DNA of 10,979 bases from NCBI GenBank assembly GCA_001803565.1, contig MHDQ01000190.1, positions 1-10,979 of the forward strand, written 5' to 3'. Numbering within the stretch: position 1 is the first letter of the stretch; each line of letters begins with the position of its first letter. Positions 1 through 10,979 of this stretch are shown one piece after another. The position numbers and the translations under genes are program-made. The notes below the pieces were generated by a model. The model saw only the letters and a list, made by a program, of their open reading frames with translations. It was not told the origin of the DNA and did not search any database. The stretch is from Nitrospinae bacterium RIFCSPLOWO2_12_FULL_45_22. GTDB taxonomy: Bacteria > 2-12-FULL-45-22.

Positions 1-64
1 TCATTCTATTAACGGTTTCAACAACAATTTCAAACAGTATATGTGAAAAACTATGGTGTAGCAT
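1..64 (-). CDS. Start of the next integron-cassette gene, unknown product (partial, runs off left edge)
   Basis: An open frame begins at the ATG at 64 on the minus strand and stays open to the window edge, giving about 21 residues that start MLHHSFSHILFE. A ribosome binding site AGGAG (complement of 71-75) lies 6 bases upstream. A second ATG at 67 is in frame but only 3 bases from that site, so 64 is preferred. The gene begins about 24 bases after the G^TT crossover point of the attC-like site, which is where the first codon of a cassette gene is usually found. Too little protein is visible to name a family. The assignment rests on context and ribosome binding site. Confidence 0.5.
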   Translation of the reverse strand, partial: MLHHSFSHILFEIVVETVNRM

Positions 65-82
65 CATCGGCTCCTTTTGGAA

Positions 83-161
83 GCATAACGTCAGCCATGA
101 GGCGCTCAGGGAGACGCGTTCGGCGCGGGTTCCTGAGTCGCACTCGATGGCTTTGTTCGAT
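83..161 (-). other. attC: attC-like integron recombination site
   Basis: Read on the minus strand the site starts with an R' box ATCGAAC (161-155) and ends with an R'' box GTTATGC (89-83). Each has one mismatch to the RYYYAAC/GTTRRRY consensus. Between them, after 3- and 4-base spacers, two arms (151-132 and 110-94) form a 17-bp stem. The R'-side arm carries three extra single bases (at 146, 142 and 138) that must bulge out, while the other arm has none. The loop of 21 bases (111-131) contains a small CGCG/CGCG stem. Short paired arms with two or three extrahelical bases on one side are the hallmark of attC sites, which integron integrase recognises as folded single strands. Length (79 bp) and position 4 bases after a stop codon also fit. 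Confidence 0.82.
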
Positions 162-1044: not shown

Positions 1045-1296
1045 TCAACCGTTGTAAAGTTCTCCCAATTCTTCGGTAAAATCTAATGGCTTGACTTCTA
1101 GCTCCCCGGCCTCGGTCTTTAGCAGCACCTCTACTTTTCTTTCCGCTTCTTCCAACTTTTTTATACACCACCGGGACAGCTTTATCCCTTCTTCAAACAC
1201 TTCTAAAGATTCGTCCAGGGAAAGGTCTCCACCTTCTAATCGCTTGACTAATTCCTCCAGGCGGCTCATAGCCTCTTCAAATCTTGGCTCGGTCAT
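1045..1296 (-). CDS. xseB: Exodeoxyribonuclease VII small subunit
   Basis: The 83-residue protein matches the XseB family in length and pattern. FEEAMSRLEELVKRLEGG at residues 6-23 is followed by a DLSLDESLEVFEEG motif and a helix ending in KKLEEAERKV. XseB is a small, mostly helical protein; several copies bind the C-terminal coiled-coil arm of XseA. The complex degrades single-stranded DNA from both ends in the cytoplasm and acts in mismatch repair and clearance of damaged DNA. The start overlaps the end of xseA by 20 bases, and GGAGGAG (complement of 1307-1313) sits 10 bases upstream, inside xseA. It is the last gene of the operon. The TGA stop is followed at once by TAA. The tail after residue 60 (acidic, ending ELYNG) is variable in the family. 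Confidence 0.95.
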   Translation of the reverse strand: MTEPRFEEAMSRLEELVKRLEGGDLSLDESLEVFEEGIKLSRWCIKKLEEAERKVEVLLKTEAGELEVKPLDFTEELGELYNG

Positions 1297-2689
1297 TATC
1301 TATTTTCTCCTCCGGTTTAGTTTTTTCCACTCGGCAAAAAATTTCTCCTTGATAGAGCTTTACTGATACCTTGTGGCCTTTTTCTACCTCCTGGGCATCT
1401 TTTACTATCTGCCCGCTGGGTAGGCTGCAGCAGATGCTATAGCCCCGTGCCAGGATAGCCAGAGGGCTCAGGCTATTAAGCTGTCCTGCGGTACCCTCCA
1501 ATCGTTTTCTTGTCATACCCAGTCTATAGATCATCTGGCGGGTCAGGTCTTTGAAAAGCCTTTGCAGATAATCTCTTCCATAAAGGATCTTTTCTCTCGG
1601 TGACCGGGAATAGTGCCTCTGGCACAAATGGGCCAGGTATTCCTTTTTATTCTTAAGCTGAATAGAAAGCGTCTTGACTGTCCGGGCCTGTAACTCATCT
1701 ACCCTTTGTTGATGGTATTGCATCTTTTCTTGAGGTATGGAGAAGCCCTTTCGCTGGCAGAGGCGTTGGAGCCGATCTTTTAAGAAGCCCAGGGAATAGC
1801 CCATCCGGTTCCGCAGCCGGCTATGGAGGGTTTGGAGGTGCAAAAGGATATCTTCCTTGTTCTTGACCACTAATTCTGCGCCCGCTGAGGGGGTAGGGGC
1901 CCGCAGGTCAGCCACAAAATCGGCAATAGTAAAATCTATCTCATGGCCCACGGCTGATATTACCGGGATGCGGGAGGCAAAGATTGCCCGCGCTACCGCT
2001 TCTTCATTAAAAGCCCATAGGTCTTCTACTGACCCGCCTCCTCGCCCTATAATCAACACATCTATATCAGGGAACTGGTTTAGGAGCCTGATCCCTTCTG
2101 CGATTTCCTGGGAAGCACCCTCTCCTTGTACCCGGGCGGGATAAAGGATAAGATGGACATTGGCAAAACGCCGCTGGATAACCCGCAAGATATCCTGGAT
2201 AGCAGCCCCAGTAAGTGAAGTCACTATACCGATTTTTTGGGGCAATAGGGGCAAGGGCTTTTTGTGCTGGGGGTCAAATAACCCTTCTTGCGCCAGCTTA
2301 TCTTTCAGTTGCTGGAAGGCCAGTTGCAGAGCCCCTATGCCTTTAGGCTCCATATAATCTATGATGATCTGGTATTCTCCCCGGGGTTCATAGACGCTTA
2401 TTCTACCGCGGACAATGACTTTGAGCCCATCTTCCAGTTTAAACCTGAGGGCCCGCCGCTGGGATTTAAAGAGTAGGGCCTTGATCTGACTGGTTTCATC
2501 TTTGAGGGTAAAATAGGTATGGCCGGAAGAGGGTATCCGGAGGTTAGAGATTTCTCCTTCTACCCAGATAGCTGAAAGTTCCAGCTCTAAAATCAGTTTT
2601 ATCCGGCTGGTCAGCTCGCTAATAGTATATATCGGCTGGCCGGTGCTCAGGGCCCAGGGCTCTGTTTCGGCTATCTTCCTTCCCTCCAT
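1277..2689 (-). CDS. xseA: Exodeoxyribonuclease VII large (catalytic) subunit
   Basis: The 470-residue protein is full length (E. coli XseA is about 456). It has an N-terminal OB-fold for single-stranded DNA at about residues 20-110 (ISELTSRIK, then WVEGEISN and GHTYFTLKD). The nuclease domain at about 135-330 carries IGIVTS with TGAAIQDI (154-168), IIGRGGGSVEDLWAFN (213-228), and SAVGHEIDFT with ADLRAPTPSAGAE (245-272). These hold the conserved acidic and histidine residues of the family. The rest is the long helical arm that binds XseB. With XseB it cuts single-stranded DNA into oligonucleotides without needing metal ions in the well-studied enzymes. The start lies within the last 19 bases of folD, after a GAGGAAAG ribosome binding site. 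This points to translational coupling in one operon. Confidence 0.96.
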   Translation of the reverse strand: MEGRKIAETEPWALSTGQPIYTISELTSRIKLILELELSAIWVEGEISNLRIPSSGHTYFTLKDETSQIKALLFKSQRRALRFKLEDGLKVIVRGRISVYEPRGEYQIIIDYMEPKGIGALQLAFQQLKDKLAQEGLFDPQHKKPLPLLPQKIGIVTSLTGAAIQDILRVIQRRFANVHLILYPARVQGEGASQEIAEGIRLLNQFPDIDVLIIGRGGGSVEDLWAFNEEAVARAIFASRIPVISAVGHEIDFTIADFVADLRAPTPSAGAELVVKNKEDILLHLQTLHSRLRNRMGYSLGFLKDRLQRLCQRKGFSIPQEKMQYHQQRVDELQARTVKTLSIQLKNKKEYLAHLCQRHYSRSPREKILYGRDYLQRLFKDLTRQMIYRLGMTRKRLEGTAGQLNSLSPLAILARGYSICCSLPSGQIVKDAQEVEKGHKVSVKLYQGEIFCRVEKTKPEEKIDNDRAKI

Positions 2690-3591
2690 ATGCTTTCCTC
2701 ATCTAATGCTGGGCCAAAAATCTGTTTACGGTATGCCAATAGAGTGTTTTTCAGCAGCATGGATATTATTAAGGGGCCTACGCCACCGGGTACGGGGACT
2801 ATAAGCCGGGCTTTTTCTGGTGCCCCATCCAGTTCTATGTCACCTACCAGCTTCCCCTTTATCATATTGAACCCCACATCTATTACCATAGCATCATCAG
2901 CCAACATACTGGCTTTGATCGCCCTGGGTTTTCTTAGGTCAGTAATGACAATTTCGGCCTTGCTGAGCAATTCTTCTCCCTGGCTACCCCAGTTGGTTGT
3001 CACCGAGACCGTAGCATAACGCTGAGCCAGGAGCATGGATAAGGGCTTGGCAAAGCCTTCTTCACGCCCTACAATTAATACCCTTTTACCGATAAGATCT
3101 ATTTTGTATCGGCCTAATATTTCAGTTATAGCTGCCAGGGTAGCAGAGACCAGGGTAGCAGTCCCGGCCAGGAGCTTGCCGATGTTTAGTGGGTGAAGGC
3201 CATCTATATCCTTGCGGTAATCTATTGTCTGAGAAAGGGCACCTATATCTATCTCTCCTGGAATAGGCAATCGAATAATTATCCCATGGACTTTAGGGTT
3301 GTTATTCAAGGAATGAATAATTTCCTGGAGCTCCTTTAATGAAATTTCACTGGGTAGATAGGCAACAAAGAAATTAATACCAGCCTTGTCGCATGCCATC
3401 CTTTTCCGTCGCAGAAAGAGTTGGCCAGCTAAGTCCTCACCAATGGAAATAGCTGCTAAACCAGGGGTTATGCCTGTCTGGGCCTTAAGGGCGGCTACTT
3501 CTGTCTTTATTTCCTCCAGGATCTCTACCGCCATAGCCCGCCCATCCAGGACCTTTGCTGTCTCACAAGCAGACTTAGCTAATTCCATCAT
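2671..3591 (-). CDS. folD: Divergent FolD-like methylenetetrahydrofolate dehydrogenase/cyclohydrolase
   Basis: The 306 residues cover the whole FolD fold. FolD normally oxidises 5,10-methylene-tetrahydrofolate with NADP and hydrolyses the product to 10-formyl-tetrahydrofolate in the cytoplasm. Conserved parts include the catalytic lysine K63 in LRRKRMACDKAGI, KDIDGLHPLNIGKL (127-140), VIDVGFN, and VPVPGGVGPL. Several usual residues are changed. The tyrosine four places before the lysine is F59; the QLPLP glutamine is R107; the CTPxG stretch reads SATLA (149-153); the GRSxxVGxP dinucleotide motif reads GREEGFAKP (175-183); and the HSxT motif is replaced by TTNW. The gene is intact and heads the operon, so it is not simply decaying. 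It may have altered cofactor use or only one of the two activities. The start could be the first or second ATG (3591 or 3588). Confidence 0.88.
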   Translation of the reverse strand: MMELAKSACETAKVLDGRAMAVEILEEIKTEVAALKAQTGITPGLAAISIGEDLAGQLFLRRKRMACDKAGINFFVAYLPSEISLKELQEIIHSLNNNPKVHGIIIRLPIPGEIDIGALSQTIDYRKDIDGLHPLNIGKLLAGTATLVSATLAAITEILGRYKIDLIGKRVLIVGREEGFAKPLSMLLAQRYATVSVTTNWGSQGEELLSKAEIVITDLRKPRAIKASMLADDAMVIDVGFNMIKGKLVGDIELDGAPEKARLIVPVPGGVGPLIISMLLKNTLLAYRKQIFGPALDEESIWREGR

Positions 3592-6022: not shown

Positions 6023-8230
6023 TTACCAGGGATGAAGAGGGGTTAGTATCTCTAGCTCGGGGATAGACCAAAAATGGACGGGGTCTGAGCCGGTCTGGGT
6101 AATTTTCAAGTAACGGGCTTCCTGGGCAGGGAAATAGATTTCAAAGATAGGGTTTTTATGATGCAAAGCAAAAGAGAGTAAGGGCGGTAGTGCAGCCTTT
6201 TCTTTTTTTACTAACTTCCATACTTGTTTATCGGTTGATACCTCTAGCTTATAACCCCGGGGATAGTCAGTCACATATCTTTCCAGATGTATTCTTAAAC
6301 CACTAACAGGATGCTTTTTACCCAGGTCTACCAGAAACCAGGTCCCGGGTCTTTGTGGTACCTGCGCAGACCAGCGGGTCTTCAAAACATCATCTATAGC
6401 ATAAAAGGCATCATGGTCAAAAATGCTTCCCTCTACTTCCCATCCAATATTAACCAGGGAGATAGAGGGGACTGAAGGGGTAGGGTAAAGAACGGGGGCT
6501 AGCTCATAAATATAATCCGAACCGAATTGCTCAACTAGTGCAAGACTGCTATCCATCTCCCCTATCTGTCCCTTAATCCATTTTATCCAGTCTGGTGGAT
6601 AGGGCTGAGAATGCCAGATTATGTATCTTACCCCCAGGGACTGCAAGTCCCTGAGGAATTCTGAGCCCGGGAACAATACCATCCTGTCTTTCAAATAATA
6701 ATATAACGGGGGATAATAGCCGCTGTAGCCGTTAACCAGTTTTTTCCAGTGATAAGTGGAGTAATACATATAAGGGGTTTCATGCCAGAGATCGGTTATG
6801 GGCAACTCAATAATGGCAAAGTCCTCCTTCTGCTTTGCAAGCCAGCCATATACTGGCGGGATGCCCTCGGCATTGTTTACTGAGACCAGGTGGATAGGGC
6901 CGGAGTAGTATTCCAGGAGAATAAGGCCTGGGATCAGGCATAACAATAACTTTTTCTTTGTGTTCCCTTTTATCCTTAAAAGAATGGAAGCACCGTATCC
7001 TGCGAGGGTACTTAAGGCGAACATGGTGAAGATCCCGAACCGGGCTGGGACCCTTAACCCATCAAATCCTGGAATCAGATTATAGAGTAAGGCATATGGC
7101 CCCATGATCAAATCTTTATAGGTGGTATGGATATGGATTAAAGGGCCAAGAGAGAATAGGAAGGCGAGGAAAGCGGTAAGCAGATAATATACCATCGGGT
7201 TCCGCAAAAAAGTTATCTTTCCCTGGACAGATGAGAGGGGCAAGTGTTCGGTTAATTTGGGGTTGAGCTGTCTGCCTCGGCACATAAAACCTATGATTCC
7301 TAATACTGCCAGGCACAGGCATACCAGCCCAGGGAAAAGGGTCTTTTCTATACTATTTCCAGGATCAGCTAATATCGCTCCATATAATTTGTTCTCGGTT
7401 GATACCCGTAAATAGCTTTGAACATCGGCTGAAAAGGGGATGATCTCTTCTAGGGAGCGTTTAAATCCCCAGTCTTTTTTAAGCTTCATATAGGGGTAAA
7501 AAAGAGGGAATAATAGGCTTACTGTAATAAGAGATAAAAGGATAAAGCTCTTTATATTTTGCCAGGCAAAAAAATCTTTTTTGATATTCAGCAGGAGAAA
7601 ACAAGCGATAAATACCGTGGTGAATAGGGCGTAGTAGCCGCAAGACAGGCATTGGAGTACATAAAAGGTTATGGCCAGGATTAAATGGCGATATTTGAAC
7701 TGATTCACAAATTTATGCAGGTAGAGGAAGGCAAAAGGTAGCCATTGGATGGTCAGGAGCTGTAAGTGAGCCAGATGGGCGAAGCGATAGGGGCAGAAGG
7801 CAAATATCAGGGCAGAAATAAAAGCTGGCCAGGAATAACCTGTTAGATGCCTGACCAGTAAGAACATACCCAGGGCAGAGACAAAAAATGAGAATAGGAA
7901 GACGAAGTTATAGGCCAGGATAACATTTTTGGTGAAGAGGATAATAGGCATAGCCAATAGCGAGCTTCCTATTAAATGTTCCGAATAGGCCAGGGTCCGC
8001 TGGTGAGGATGGAATATGTTGGCATTAAATAAGTTTATGGGGTCAGTAAATATCTGGTGTACATCCCAGGCCAGTATCCAGGTGTTCAATAAGGGGTCGC
8101 CCAGATTGTCGGGTAGATGGTCGGTGAGGTGGAGGATCAAGGGATAGGTCATTAAGGCGGTTAGGAGGATGAATAATATTAATATCTTAATAGTGCCTTG
8201 GTGTCCCTTAATCCAATCTTTCAACTCCAT
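6023..8230 (-). CDS. Multi-pass membrane protein, GT-C glycosyltransferase-like, with C-terminal discoidin domain
   Basis: From the ATG at 8230 the product has 735 residues. The first two thirds hold about ten or more hydrophobic segments, beginning at residues 14-35. The first extracytoplasmic loop has acidic residues (D41 and D45 in DNLGDPLLNTWILAW), as in GT-C enzymes, which transfer sugars from lipid carriers outside the membrane. A soluble part follows (FAIIELP, then YSTYHWKKLVNGYSGYYPP and SLGVRYIIWHS). Residues from about 592 to the end form a discoidin (F5/8 type C) domain with KTRWSAQ, FLVDLGKKHPVSGLRIH and ARYLKITQTG, probably binding carbohydrate outside the cell. The start at 8230 has AAAGGA upstream; the frame could extend to a GTG at 8251, but with no ribosome binding site there. 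A paralog lies at 10005. The enzymatic role is inferred only. Confidence 0.82.
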   Translation of the reverse strand: MELKDWIKGHQGTIKILILFILLTALMTYPLILHLTDHLPDNLGDPLLNTWILAWDVHQIFTDPINLFNANIFHPHQRTLAYSEHLIGSSLLAMPIILFTKNVILAYNFVFLFSFFVSALGMFLLVRHLTGYSWPAFISALIFAFCPYRFAHLAHLQLLTIQWLPFAFLYLHKFVNQFKYRHLILAITFYVLQCLSCGYYALFTTVFIACFLLLNIKKDFFAWQNIKSFILLSLITVSLLFPLFYPYMKLKKDWGFKRSLEEIIPFSADVQSYLRVSTENKLYGAILADPGNSIEKTLFPGLVCLCLAVLGIIGFMCRGRQLNPKLTEHLPLSSVQGKITFLRNPMVYYLLTAFLAFLFSLGPLIHIHTTYKDLIMGPYALLYNLIPGFDGLRVPARFGIFTMFALSTLAGYGASILLRIKGNTKKKLLLCLIPGLILLEYYSGPIHLVSVNNAEGIPPVYGWLAKQKEDFAIIELPITDLWHETPYMYYSTYHWKKLVNGYSGYYPPLYYYLKDRMVLFPGSEFLRDLQSLGVRYIIWHSQPYPPDWIKWIKGQIGEMDSSLALVEQFGSDYIYELAPVLYPTPSVPSISLVNIGWEVEGSIFDHDAFYAIDDVLKTRWSAQVPQRPGTWFLVDLGKKHPVSGLRIHLERYVTDYPRGYKLEVSTDKQVWKLVKKEKAALPPLLSFALHHKNPIFEIYFPAQEARYLKITQTGSDPVHFWSIPELEILTPLHPW

Positions 8231-8298
8231 AGCTATCCTTTTGCCCATCACAGATTCTAAGGAACGAGTAGCGCTACCTGTAACAGTTACCGATACTT

Positions 8299-9597
8299 TT
8301 ATATATGGAGCGGCTTTATTTGGTGAATATTCTCTTCCAGGAGCGCTAGGAAGGCGGGAGGGTCTGAGGGAAGGGGTTTTGGCGTATAATCCTGTTTAAT
8401 CCTTTCTAAATATCCTGGTAGGGTGGGATATTGGCTGATTATATAATCCATATTGGGACTGAGTCCGCAGCACAGCCGGTTCAAACGCCAGTAACTCAGC
8501 AAAAAATCCCGGGCCAGCGCAATATCTTTTTGTTGCAATTGGTTATAGATAGCACATTCTTGCTCTAGCAGGCTATTTACTTTTCTTAACAAGGAGGTAT
8601 CTACGCCAGTACTCTTTTCCACTAAGGCAATGCCGATATTTTCGTTCTCATGACGAAACATAGCTCCTCGCAGGGCGCTCAAGAGGGCATCGCGGCCCAT
8701 GGAGGATAGGTGCTGCTGTCCTGCATCTTCATACATCTTTAAGCGAGATTGGATTATCTCTTCTGAATTACCTAAATTCAGGCCCAAATTTCTCCCTACC
8801 GAGATTCCCTGTTCGATGATCCTGGTCATTAATCCCCGCAAGAGCTGGTTATCTATTACTTCGCCACAGGTACAGCCAATCAGGGCCGAGACAGGGTTTA
8901 TCAAGTTGGCCAGGGTCTTATCAAAACTATCTTTCCTGAAGCTATTCTCGAACTCAGCCCTTACCTGAAGCCTTTGGGGAGGGAAGAGGGTTTTTACCCG
9001 CTGGAGGGTTTGTTCAAACTCCGGGGTCTTTTTCTCAAACCAGTTACCGATAACAATCTCACTGATACCGCTCCTTACCAGCCGTACTGGGTGGCTCCCT
9101 ATTTCCTGCAGCTCATAATCGGTCCCACCCATTATTACTACCCGGACTAATGTATTGGTAATACCCCTTGCTTTATGCCCGGCCAGGGCCTTTTCTTCCG
9201 GGGCTAATCCATTAACCAGATAGGTTATCACACTATCTGGCTTAGCAATCTCTTTAATTAGATCCTGGACCGCTGCATAATCATATGCCTTAACCGCCAC
9301 AAAAATAACCGCTCCATCGGCCAGCCCTATCTGGCCCAAGGCCATAGTGGAATAAGCCGCTACCTCACCTGGAGCCAATGTTTTCGGGTTCGCTATTATT
9401 TTACCCAATGGAATAACCGTTTTATCATCAGGATAATAGACATCTTTTTCTATGCGTAATTCCTGGGTCGTTAATGCCTTTACTGGTTGAGGTAGGTCCA
9501 GGGCCCCTAGCCGTGCCTCCGTACTATAGAGTTTGAGCATAAAATAAGAGCCAATCTGCCCACCAGCCCCTATAATGAGCAAATCAATCTTTGTCAT
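8299..9597 (-). CDS. Ketopantoate reductase-like oxidoreductase with a long C-terminal extension
   Basis: Starting at the ATG at 9597 the product has 432 residues, against about 300 for PanE. The N-terminal Rossmann motif is IIGAGGQIGS (8-17). Family features follow: VAVKAYDY with K103, YLVNGLAPEE (127-135), and FDKTLANLINPVSALIGCTCGE (226-246) holding the lysine K227 and N231 in the positions of the PanE catalytic pair. SSMGRDALLSALR with RHENEN (298-320) matches the C-terminal helical domain. PanE reduces 2-oxopantoate to pantoate with NADPH for coenzyme A synthesis, but many family members act on other 2-oxo acids, so no gene name is given. Residues from about 347 on are an added segment with two cysteines (C376, C377). 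The frame could begin at a GTG at 9636, but this lies in repeat-like DNA. It sits between two paralogous membrane protein genes. Confidence 0.85.
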   Translation of the reverse strand: MTKIDLLIIGAGGQIGSYFMLKLYSTEARLGALDLPQPVKALTTQELRIEKDVYYPDDKTVIPLGKIIANPKTLAPGEVAAYSTMALGQIGLADGAVIFVAVKAYDYAAVQDLIKEIAKPDSVITYLVNGLAPEEKALAGHKARGITNTLVRVVIMGGTDYELQEIGSHPVRLVRSGISEIVIGNWFEKKTPEFEQTLQRVKTLFPPQRLQVRAEFENSFRKDSFDKTLANLINPVSALIGCTCGEVIDNQLLRGLMTRIIEQGISVGRNLGLNLGNSEEIIQSRLKMYEDAGQQHLSSMGRDALLSALRGAMFRHENENIGIALVEKSTGVDTSLLRKVNSLLEQECAIYNQLQQKDIALARDFLLSYWRLNRLCCGLSPNMDYIISQYPTLPGYLERIKQDYTPKPLPSDPPAFLALLEENIHQIKPLHI

Positions 9598-9790
9598 TTT
9601 TCTGTTAATAAAACTCAAAAGTAGATACTTAATCACGAATTACACGAATGGACGAATGACACCAATGGCTCTTAGCATTGCCCGCAACGGTCTAACTATA
9701 TTCGTGCTATTCATACATTCCCAAAACCGCATTATTAAAATGAAAATTCCTCTAGTATCTAGTTATTTAGTTGCCACTGAAAAATGGGGT

Positions 9791-9948: not shown

Positions 9949-10054
9949 ACGTCAAAGTCATCTTAGAAGTCGATTGGGTAACTCAAGGCTTTAGCCTTGA
10001 CAGATCAACCCTGAAGGGTTGAGTTACAGGGGCTGCTCAGGATCACTTTGACGT
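9949..10054. repeat. Nested hairpin repeat overlapping the 3' end of the second discoidin gene
   Basis: Outer arms ACGTCAAAGTCATC (9949-9962) and GATCACTTTGACGT (10041-10054) pair at 13 of 14 positions. Inside, GTAACTCAA (9978-9986) pairs with TTGAGTTAC (10019-10027). Two perfect 8-bp hairpins occupy the centre: TCAAGGCTTTAGCCTTGA (9983-10000) and TCAACCCTGAAGGGTTGA (10005-10022). The block looks like a complete small dispersed element. The neighbouring reading frame enters it and stops at 10005. Confidence 0.72.
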
Positions 10055-10979
10055 TACCGTGGGGGCTTAACACCTCTAGCTCGTGGATAGTCCAGCGATA
10101 TTGGTGGTTACCTGTCAGGGTAATTTTTAGATACCGGGCTTCGTGGGGCGGGAAATAAATCTCAAAGATAGGGTCTTTGGGCTGCCGGGCATAGGATAAG
10201 AGGGGTGGCAATGGGTCTCTTTCTTCTTTGACTAATTCCCAGACCGCTTTATCCGCAGATATTTCTAGTGTGTAACCCCGGGGATACTCTGCTACATCTT
10301 CTCCCAGGTGGATTCTTACGCCATTTATTAGGCACTCTTTACCGAGGTCTATCAAGAAATAACTCCCTGGCCTCTGGGGCTCGTGGGTGGACCAGTAAGT
10401 CTCCAAAATGCCATCAATGGCCTTTGGGGAATCAATACTAAATCTGTTTGCCTCGACTTGCCATTTAGCCTTATCCAGAACGGTGAAAGAATCCGGCGGA
10501 ATAGGAAAGGGGCCAGGGTCTATGGCATACACATAGTCGGTATAGAATTGCCGGACTAACCGGAGGGTGCTACCGAGCTCAGCAATCTGCGACTTTATTC
10601 GTTCCCTCTGCCCTGGGGAATAGAGATGGGAATGCCAGACCAGATACTTGACCCGGAGGGCCTGCAAGTCTCGAAGAAAATCGCGGGACGGGAAAAGGGT
10701 CGCCCTATCCCTCAAATAAAAATAATAGAGGGGTGGATAATAACCACTGTGACCATTAACCAGCTTTTTCCAATGATAAGTAGAATAGTAGGTATAGAGG
10801 GTTTCTTGCCCTGGATCGGTCATGGGGAGCTCTATGATAGCAAAATCTCCTTTTTGATTAGCGAGCCACTGATATACCGGGGGAATTTCTTTTCCTGCCT
10901 TTACCGGTGCGATAGGGATCGGTGCCGGGTAATATTCAATAAGGATTAGAGATGAAAATATAAAAAAGAACAGGCCCTT
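10005..10979 (-). CDS. Second discoidin-tailed membrane protein, paralog of the 6023-8230 gene (5' end beyond right edge)
   Basis: The frame is open through the right edge, so 324 C-terminal residues are visible; the ATG at 10823 is internal. The first visible residues are a hydrophobic segment, then EYYPAP and IPPVYQWLANQKGDFAIIEL, aligning with the last membrane segment and loop of the first paralog. STYHWKKLVNGHSGYYPPLY, FLRDLQALRVKYLVWHS and a complete discoidin domain follow (ETYWSTHEPQRPGSYFLIDL, then HLGEDVAEYPRGYTLEISAD and ARYLKITLTG). By eye the two proteins share well over half their residues. After ELEVLSP the last 18 residues are unlike the paralog and are encoded by the nested hairpin repeat. 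The product is probably a membrane enzyme acting on surface sugars, by analogy only. Confidence 0.82.
   Translation of the reverse strand, partial: KGLFFFIFSSLILIEYYPAPIPIAPVKAGKEIPPVYQWLANQKGDFAIIELPMTDPGQETLYTYYSTYHWKKLVNGHSGYYPPLYYFYLRDRATLFPSRDFLRDLQALRVKYLVWHSHLYSPGQRERIKSQIAELGSTLRLVRQFYTDYVYAIDPGPFPIPPDSFTVLDKAKWQVEANRFSIDSPKAIDGILETYWSTHEPQRPGSYFLIDLGKECLINGVRIHLGEDVAEYPRGYTLEISADKAVWELVKEERDPLPPLLSYARQPKDPIFEIYFPPHEARYLKITLTGNHQYRWTIHELEVLSPHGNVKVILSSPCNSTLQG

Follow-up and report, generated by a model that had tools for sequence, protein, structure and literature searches.

An integron attC site and its gene cassette beside xseB at the edge of a Nitrospinae contig

Organization of the Locus

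The window analysed here is an entire contig (C190; 10,979 nucleotides) of the 3.67-Mb, 321-contig genome of the uncultured Nitrospinae bacterium RIFCSPLOWO2_12_FULL_45_22. Near its left end, a minus-strand gene at positions 166-699 encodes a 177-amino-acid DUF6680 protein (Pfam PF20385, E 5.6e-54) with a hydrophobic stretch at its start. The TAG stop codon of this gene lies at 168-166, and an imperfect hairpin (83-161) begins four bases further on, the same spacing that an earlier note on this DNA had given. On the other side of the gene, an AT-rich gap of 316 bp (729-1044), which contains neither attC nor intI, extends from the head of the array to the stop codon of xseB (1045-1296, minus strand), a chromosomal gene that is accompanied by xseA (1277-2689) and folD (2671-3591). 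Farther to the right, two large membrane proteins, paralogues that resemble each other in their C-terminal regions, are encoded at 6023-8251 and 10005-10979 (minus strand), flanking a gene at 8299-9636; the membrane-protein gene at 10005-10979 reaches past the end of the contig.

Structure of the attC Site

The hairpin at 83-161 folds strongly on both strands (z -4.1 on the plus strand and -5.2 on the minus strand), and none of 200 dinucleotide-preserving shuffles folds as well, in agreement with the earlier view that a chance origin is very unlikely. Its stem consists of 18 bp arranged as 6+3+3+6, with AAC (87-89) opposite GTT (155-157) at the ends. The arm AGCCAT-GAG-GCG-CTCAGG (93-110) pairs with CCTGAG (132-137), CGC (139-141), CTC (143-145) and ATGGCT (147-152), leaving three single unpaired bases, T138, A142 and G146 on the plus strand. 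The earlier note had placed the site at exactly these coordinates, with three unpaired single bases and the same AAC/GTT ends; it counted 17 bp in the stem rather than 18.

In general, the extrahelical bases of known attC sites are found on the R''/L'' arm. The window's site has the same arrangement: the gene is on the minus strand, so the minus strand is the attC top strand and the bulges belong to the R''/L'' arm. The earlier assignment to the R' arm came from reading the plus strand. In the orientation of the gene, the site begins with the R'' box ATCGAAC (161-155), followed by the L'' arm with the extrahelical bases G146, A142 and T138, a variable terminal structure (VTS; 131-111), the L' arm, and the R' box GTTATGC (89-83). 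The bottom strand, which corresponds to the plus strand of the window, carries the bulges in the order G, A, T. An imperfect hairpin, extrahelical bases on the '' arm, a central spacer and a terminal structure are therefore all present at 83-161. Extrahelical bases are a feature of known attC sites (PMC8946536, PMC5371416), and the length of 79 bp falls inside the published range of 57-141 bp (PMC5371416).

Each of the two boxes differs from consensus (RYYYAAC / GTTRRRY) by one base, as the earlier note had observed, whereas AAC and GTT are exact. One mismatch in the degenerate part of a box is ordinary among the attC sites of this genome and is shared with many of them. No R' box of the genome is more frequent than GTTATGC (8 of 67), and R'' boxes ending in CGAAC are recurrent. 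At L'', the motif TCGAG(T)GCGAC agrees with the canonical L'' of the genome's attC set. A site on another contig (C156:2230-2304) is a twin of the window's attC in its three-bulge layout.

The site resembles the attC sites of sedentary chromosomal integrons, such as the VCR of Vibrio cholerae, and those of class 1 cassettes, such as attC aadA7, in its AAC/GTT cleavage boxes and in the order R''-L''-VTS-L'-R'. It also shares with them extrahelical bases that are confined to one side, the outermost of which is G when the bottom strand is read. Unlike these sites, it has one more extrahelical base, which interrupts the 6-bp L stem at its middle, and a central spacer that is partly paired (AGC/GCT).

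Covariance Model Matches

A plain IUPAC pattern applied to the genome returned mostly chance matches and one true attC. Two covariance models, both built in this analysis and distinct from IntegronFinder's own attC model, were used to search for attC sites. The model R1 was derived from aligned attC sites near integron integrases on other contigs, with the window excluded; its best match in the window is 83-161 on the minus strand (19.5 bits; second best, 8.1). The model R2 was derived from 71 R1 matches, overlapping loci included and the window again excluded. R2 arrives at precisely the same interval and strand, with a score of 31.6 bits (E 4.6e-6; second best, 7.1), which bears out the proposal that an attC covariance model would find the site. 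The maximum R2 score in control DNA (793 kb around xseA of 80 other genomes) is 15.2 bits. On the other side, with the 11-sequence model alone, E for the window's site is only 0.0068. The site was found by direct scanning and is absent from two whole-genome scans, which scored only 150 candidates taken from a fast first look, probably as a result of this limit on candidates. Its model score is below that of most attC sites of the genome.

The Gene Cassette and Its Boundaries

The first bases of an inserted cassette, TTRRRY, complete the cassette's own R' box in its circular form and should therefore be complementary to its own R'' box. The R'' box ATCGAAC thus predicts that the cassette begins with GTTCGAT. 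This heptamer, the exact complement of R'', occupies 728-722 of the minus strand; between it and the ATG at 699, which lies 23 bases downstream, there is a ribosome-binding sequence; the cut is expected between G728 and T727. Among 33 neighbouring attC pairs of the genome, the complementarity is exact in 22 (shuffled mean 1.9, maximum 8), and a mean of 3.42 of the four variable positions agree (shuffled mean 1.97, maximum 2.55). From these two boundaries, the whole gene cassette would measure about 639 bp, from T727 to G89 on the minus strand. A gene, the attC behind it, and a start complementary to its own R'' thus occur in the order of a gene cassette. The identification of 83-161 as an attC site, put forward in the earlier note, gains from both the model match and this predicted start. 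A second copy of GTTCGAT, at 927-921 on the minus strand within an apparent gene remnant, is taken as chance.

The sequence to the left of the attC (1-88, minus strand) is most likely the start of the next cassette, judging from its TTATGC box, followed by AAAAGGAG and by ATGATG (67-62), from which a frame (MMLHHSFSHILFEIVVETVNRM...) stays open as far as the contig end. This probable second cassette is cut by the contig end, and its left side is therefore unreadable. Neither the bases to the left of the attC nor those to the right of the array head have a second copy in the genome. Contig C114 was considered as the adjoining contig and rejected: it has a fitting GCATAAC R'' box near a contig end and shares no overlap with the end of the window.

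Interpretation and Alternatives

With near certainty, the DUF6680 gene lies in an integron gene cassette (about 727 to 89, minus strand) that has its attC site at positions 83-161. Further points against this reading are the presence of only one attC on the contig, the one-base deviation of each box and the lack of an adjacent intI or attI. A hairpin four bases past a stop codon, with a strong stem, might instead be a Rho-independent terminator or another RNA hairpin behind the DUF6680 gene rather than a recombination site. This is very improbable: there is no T-run after the hairpin, the terminator scan is silent at 83-161, and Rfam has no match in the window. A terminator would also leave the GTT/AAC boxes, the one-sided bulges, the R''-complementary start and the attC model match unexplained. 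A chance imperfect palindrome, to which the single consensus mismatch in each box might point, has a negligible probability. That reading is already refuted by the model (E 4.6e-6 per window), by the control DNA, whose best score lies below that of the site, and by the cassette boundary found where it was predicted.

It is more conceivable, but still unlikely, that the site is a degenerate attC that no longer recombines and that the cassette is a fossil. The many intI fragments in the genome, the contig's own lack of intI and the modest model score are in keeping with such decay; the stem, GTT/AAC and the extrahelical bases are nevertheless intact, as are the exactly matching boundary and the open frame of the gene, and the genome encodes two full-length IntI. 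The feature is a true attC with its gene cassette, of an ordinary kind in an unusual host.

How this attC site folds in the cell, which of its strands is used, where it is cut and whether the cassette moves can be proposed by analogy with the integron literature. The attC bottom strand, here the plus strand of the window, would fold into a hairpin that has an unpaired central spacer, ends in a terminal loop and leaves three bases extrahelical, and the integron integrase would bind it as a folded single strand. The integrase would be expected to cut the R' box between G and TT, a cut through which the cassette could be excised and inserted elsewhere. The two intact IntI encoded on other contigs could act in trans.

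The Array Head and the xseB Flank

At the window, xseB stands where intI and attI would stand in a complete integron. The window contains no intI, and the stretch from the first cassette to xseB has no recognisable attI. Within 150 bases upstream of the cassette start at 728 there is no AAC able to form an attC, the region 728-1045 has no R2 match above 5.1 bits, and the array-head flank has no significant similarity to the attI side of contig C243. Just upstream of the cassette head, a perfect inverted repeat occupies 758-806; its 12-bp arms (TTTTTTCCTTTG / CAAAGGAAAAAA) are separated by a loop of 25 bases. Between the cassette and xseB, the apparent gene remnant mentioned above lies at 1013-867 on the minus strand (..GYLSFLDSKYNNRTFWPKPDMNVPFDKNNLAALKWKKYIIRIS*).

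In the same-order relative, the only one among the relatives searched, a prenyl-synthase gene directly follows xseB; the genome studied here therefore differs from it in what lies behind xseB. A search with the relative's ispA-like protein, aimed at the far side of the array, retrieved only a 34% homologue, on contig C158.

Three origins would each fit the position of the array head beside xseB: insertion of the attG type, erosion of a former attI, or rearrangement of a CALIN. A CALIN is defined as at least two attC sites within 4 kb without intI. The window resembles one in having a cassette with an attC on a contig that lacks intI, while intact IntI are encoded elsewhere in the genome; it differs in that one attC is visible before the contig ends, whereas the usual rule asks for at least two (PMC9024848, PMC9668308). 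With a single attC on the contig, the cluster rule is inapplicable. Insertion of cassettes into genomic attG sites is described by Loot et al. 2024, as related in PMC11023631 and PMC12444791. As in such insertions, the array head adjoins ordinary chromosomal DNA (the xseB side) at G/TT, with no recognisable attI or attC. It is tentatively possible that IntI placed a cassette into an ordinary chromosomal G/TT and that a multi-cassette array then grew away from any attI, in a lineage whose integrases include several that are live and several that are dead.

A cassette that ends in an attC and lies at the edge of a contig would be lost under default CALIN rules; it can be recognised through the complementarity between its start and its R'' box.

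The DUF6680 Cargo

Only two DUF6680 genes are present in the genome. The second, whose product is 41% identical to that of the window's gene, is flanked by attC sites in the array of contig C304, which also carries an IntI. Homologues are also found on plasmids of Vibrio and Klebsiella, the Klebsiella copy adjoining a YpjF-YfjZ toxin-antitoxin pair, and on three IMG/VR contigs. DUF6680 is uncharacterised: PADLOC, PHROGs and phage searches returned no function for it, and no mention was found in the literature searched. An accessory or defence role is possible.

Integrons Elsewhere in the Genome

The genome contains about 65-80 attC sites, which are spread over some 40 contigs (R1 and R2 scans). 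Many of these sites are close to the end of a contig, which would be expected of arrays at which the assembly breaks. Complete integron arrangements are present on C243 and C304, each with an intact full-length IntI in which the catalytic regions are present together with the integron-specific patch III motif (RKYPxAAxEWxWQYVFP). The integron on C304 is canonical, with intI on the plus strand and the array on the minus strand. With this genome, a thinly sampled lineage gains an integron host that is rich in cassettes; integrons are probably widespread in the lineage.

Besides the two intact genes, partial integron integrase genes occur on C115, C136, C7, C317, C287, C248, C17, C95 and C106; the fragments on C136 and C317 lack the same stretch (model positions about 125-269). 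In the sole same-order relative searched (G001), attC model matches are found on four contigs (L190-L193).
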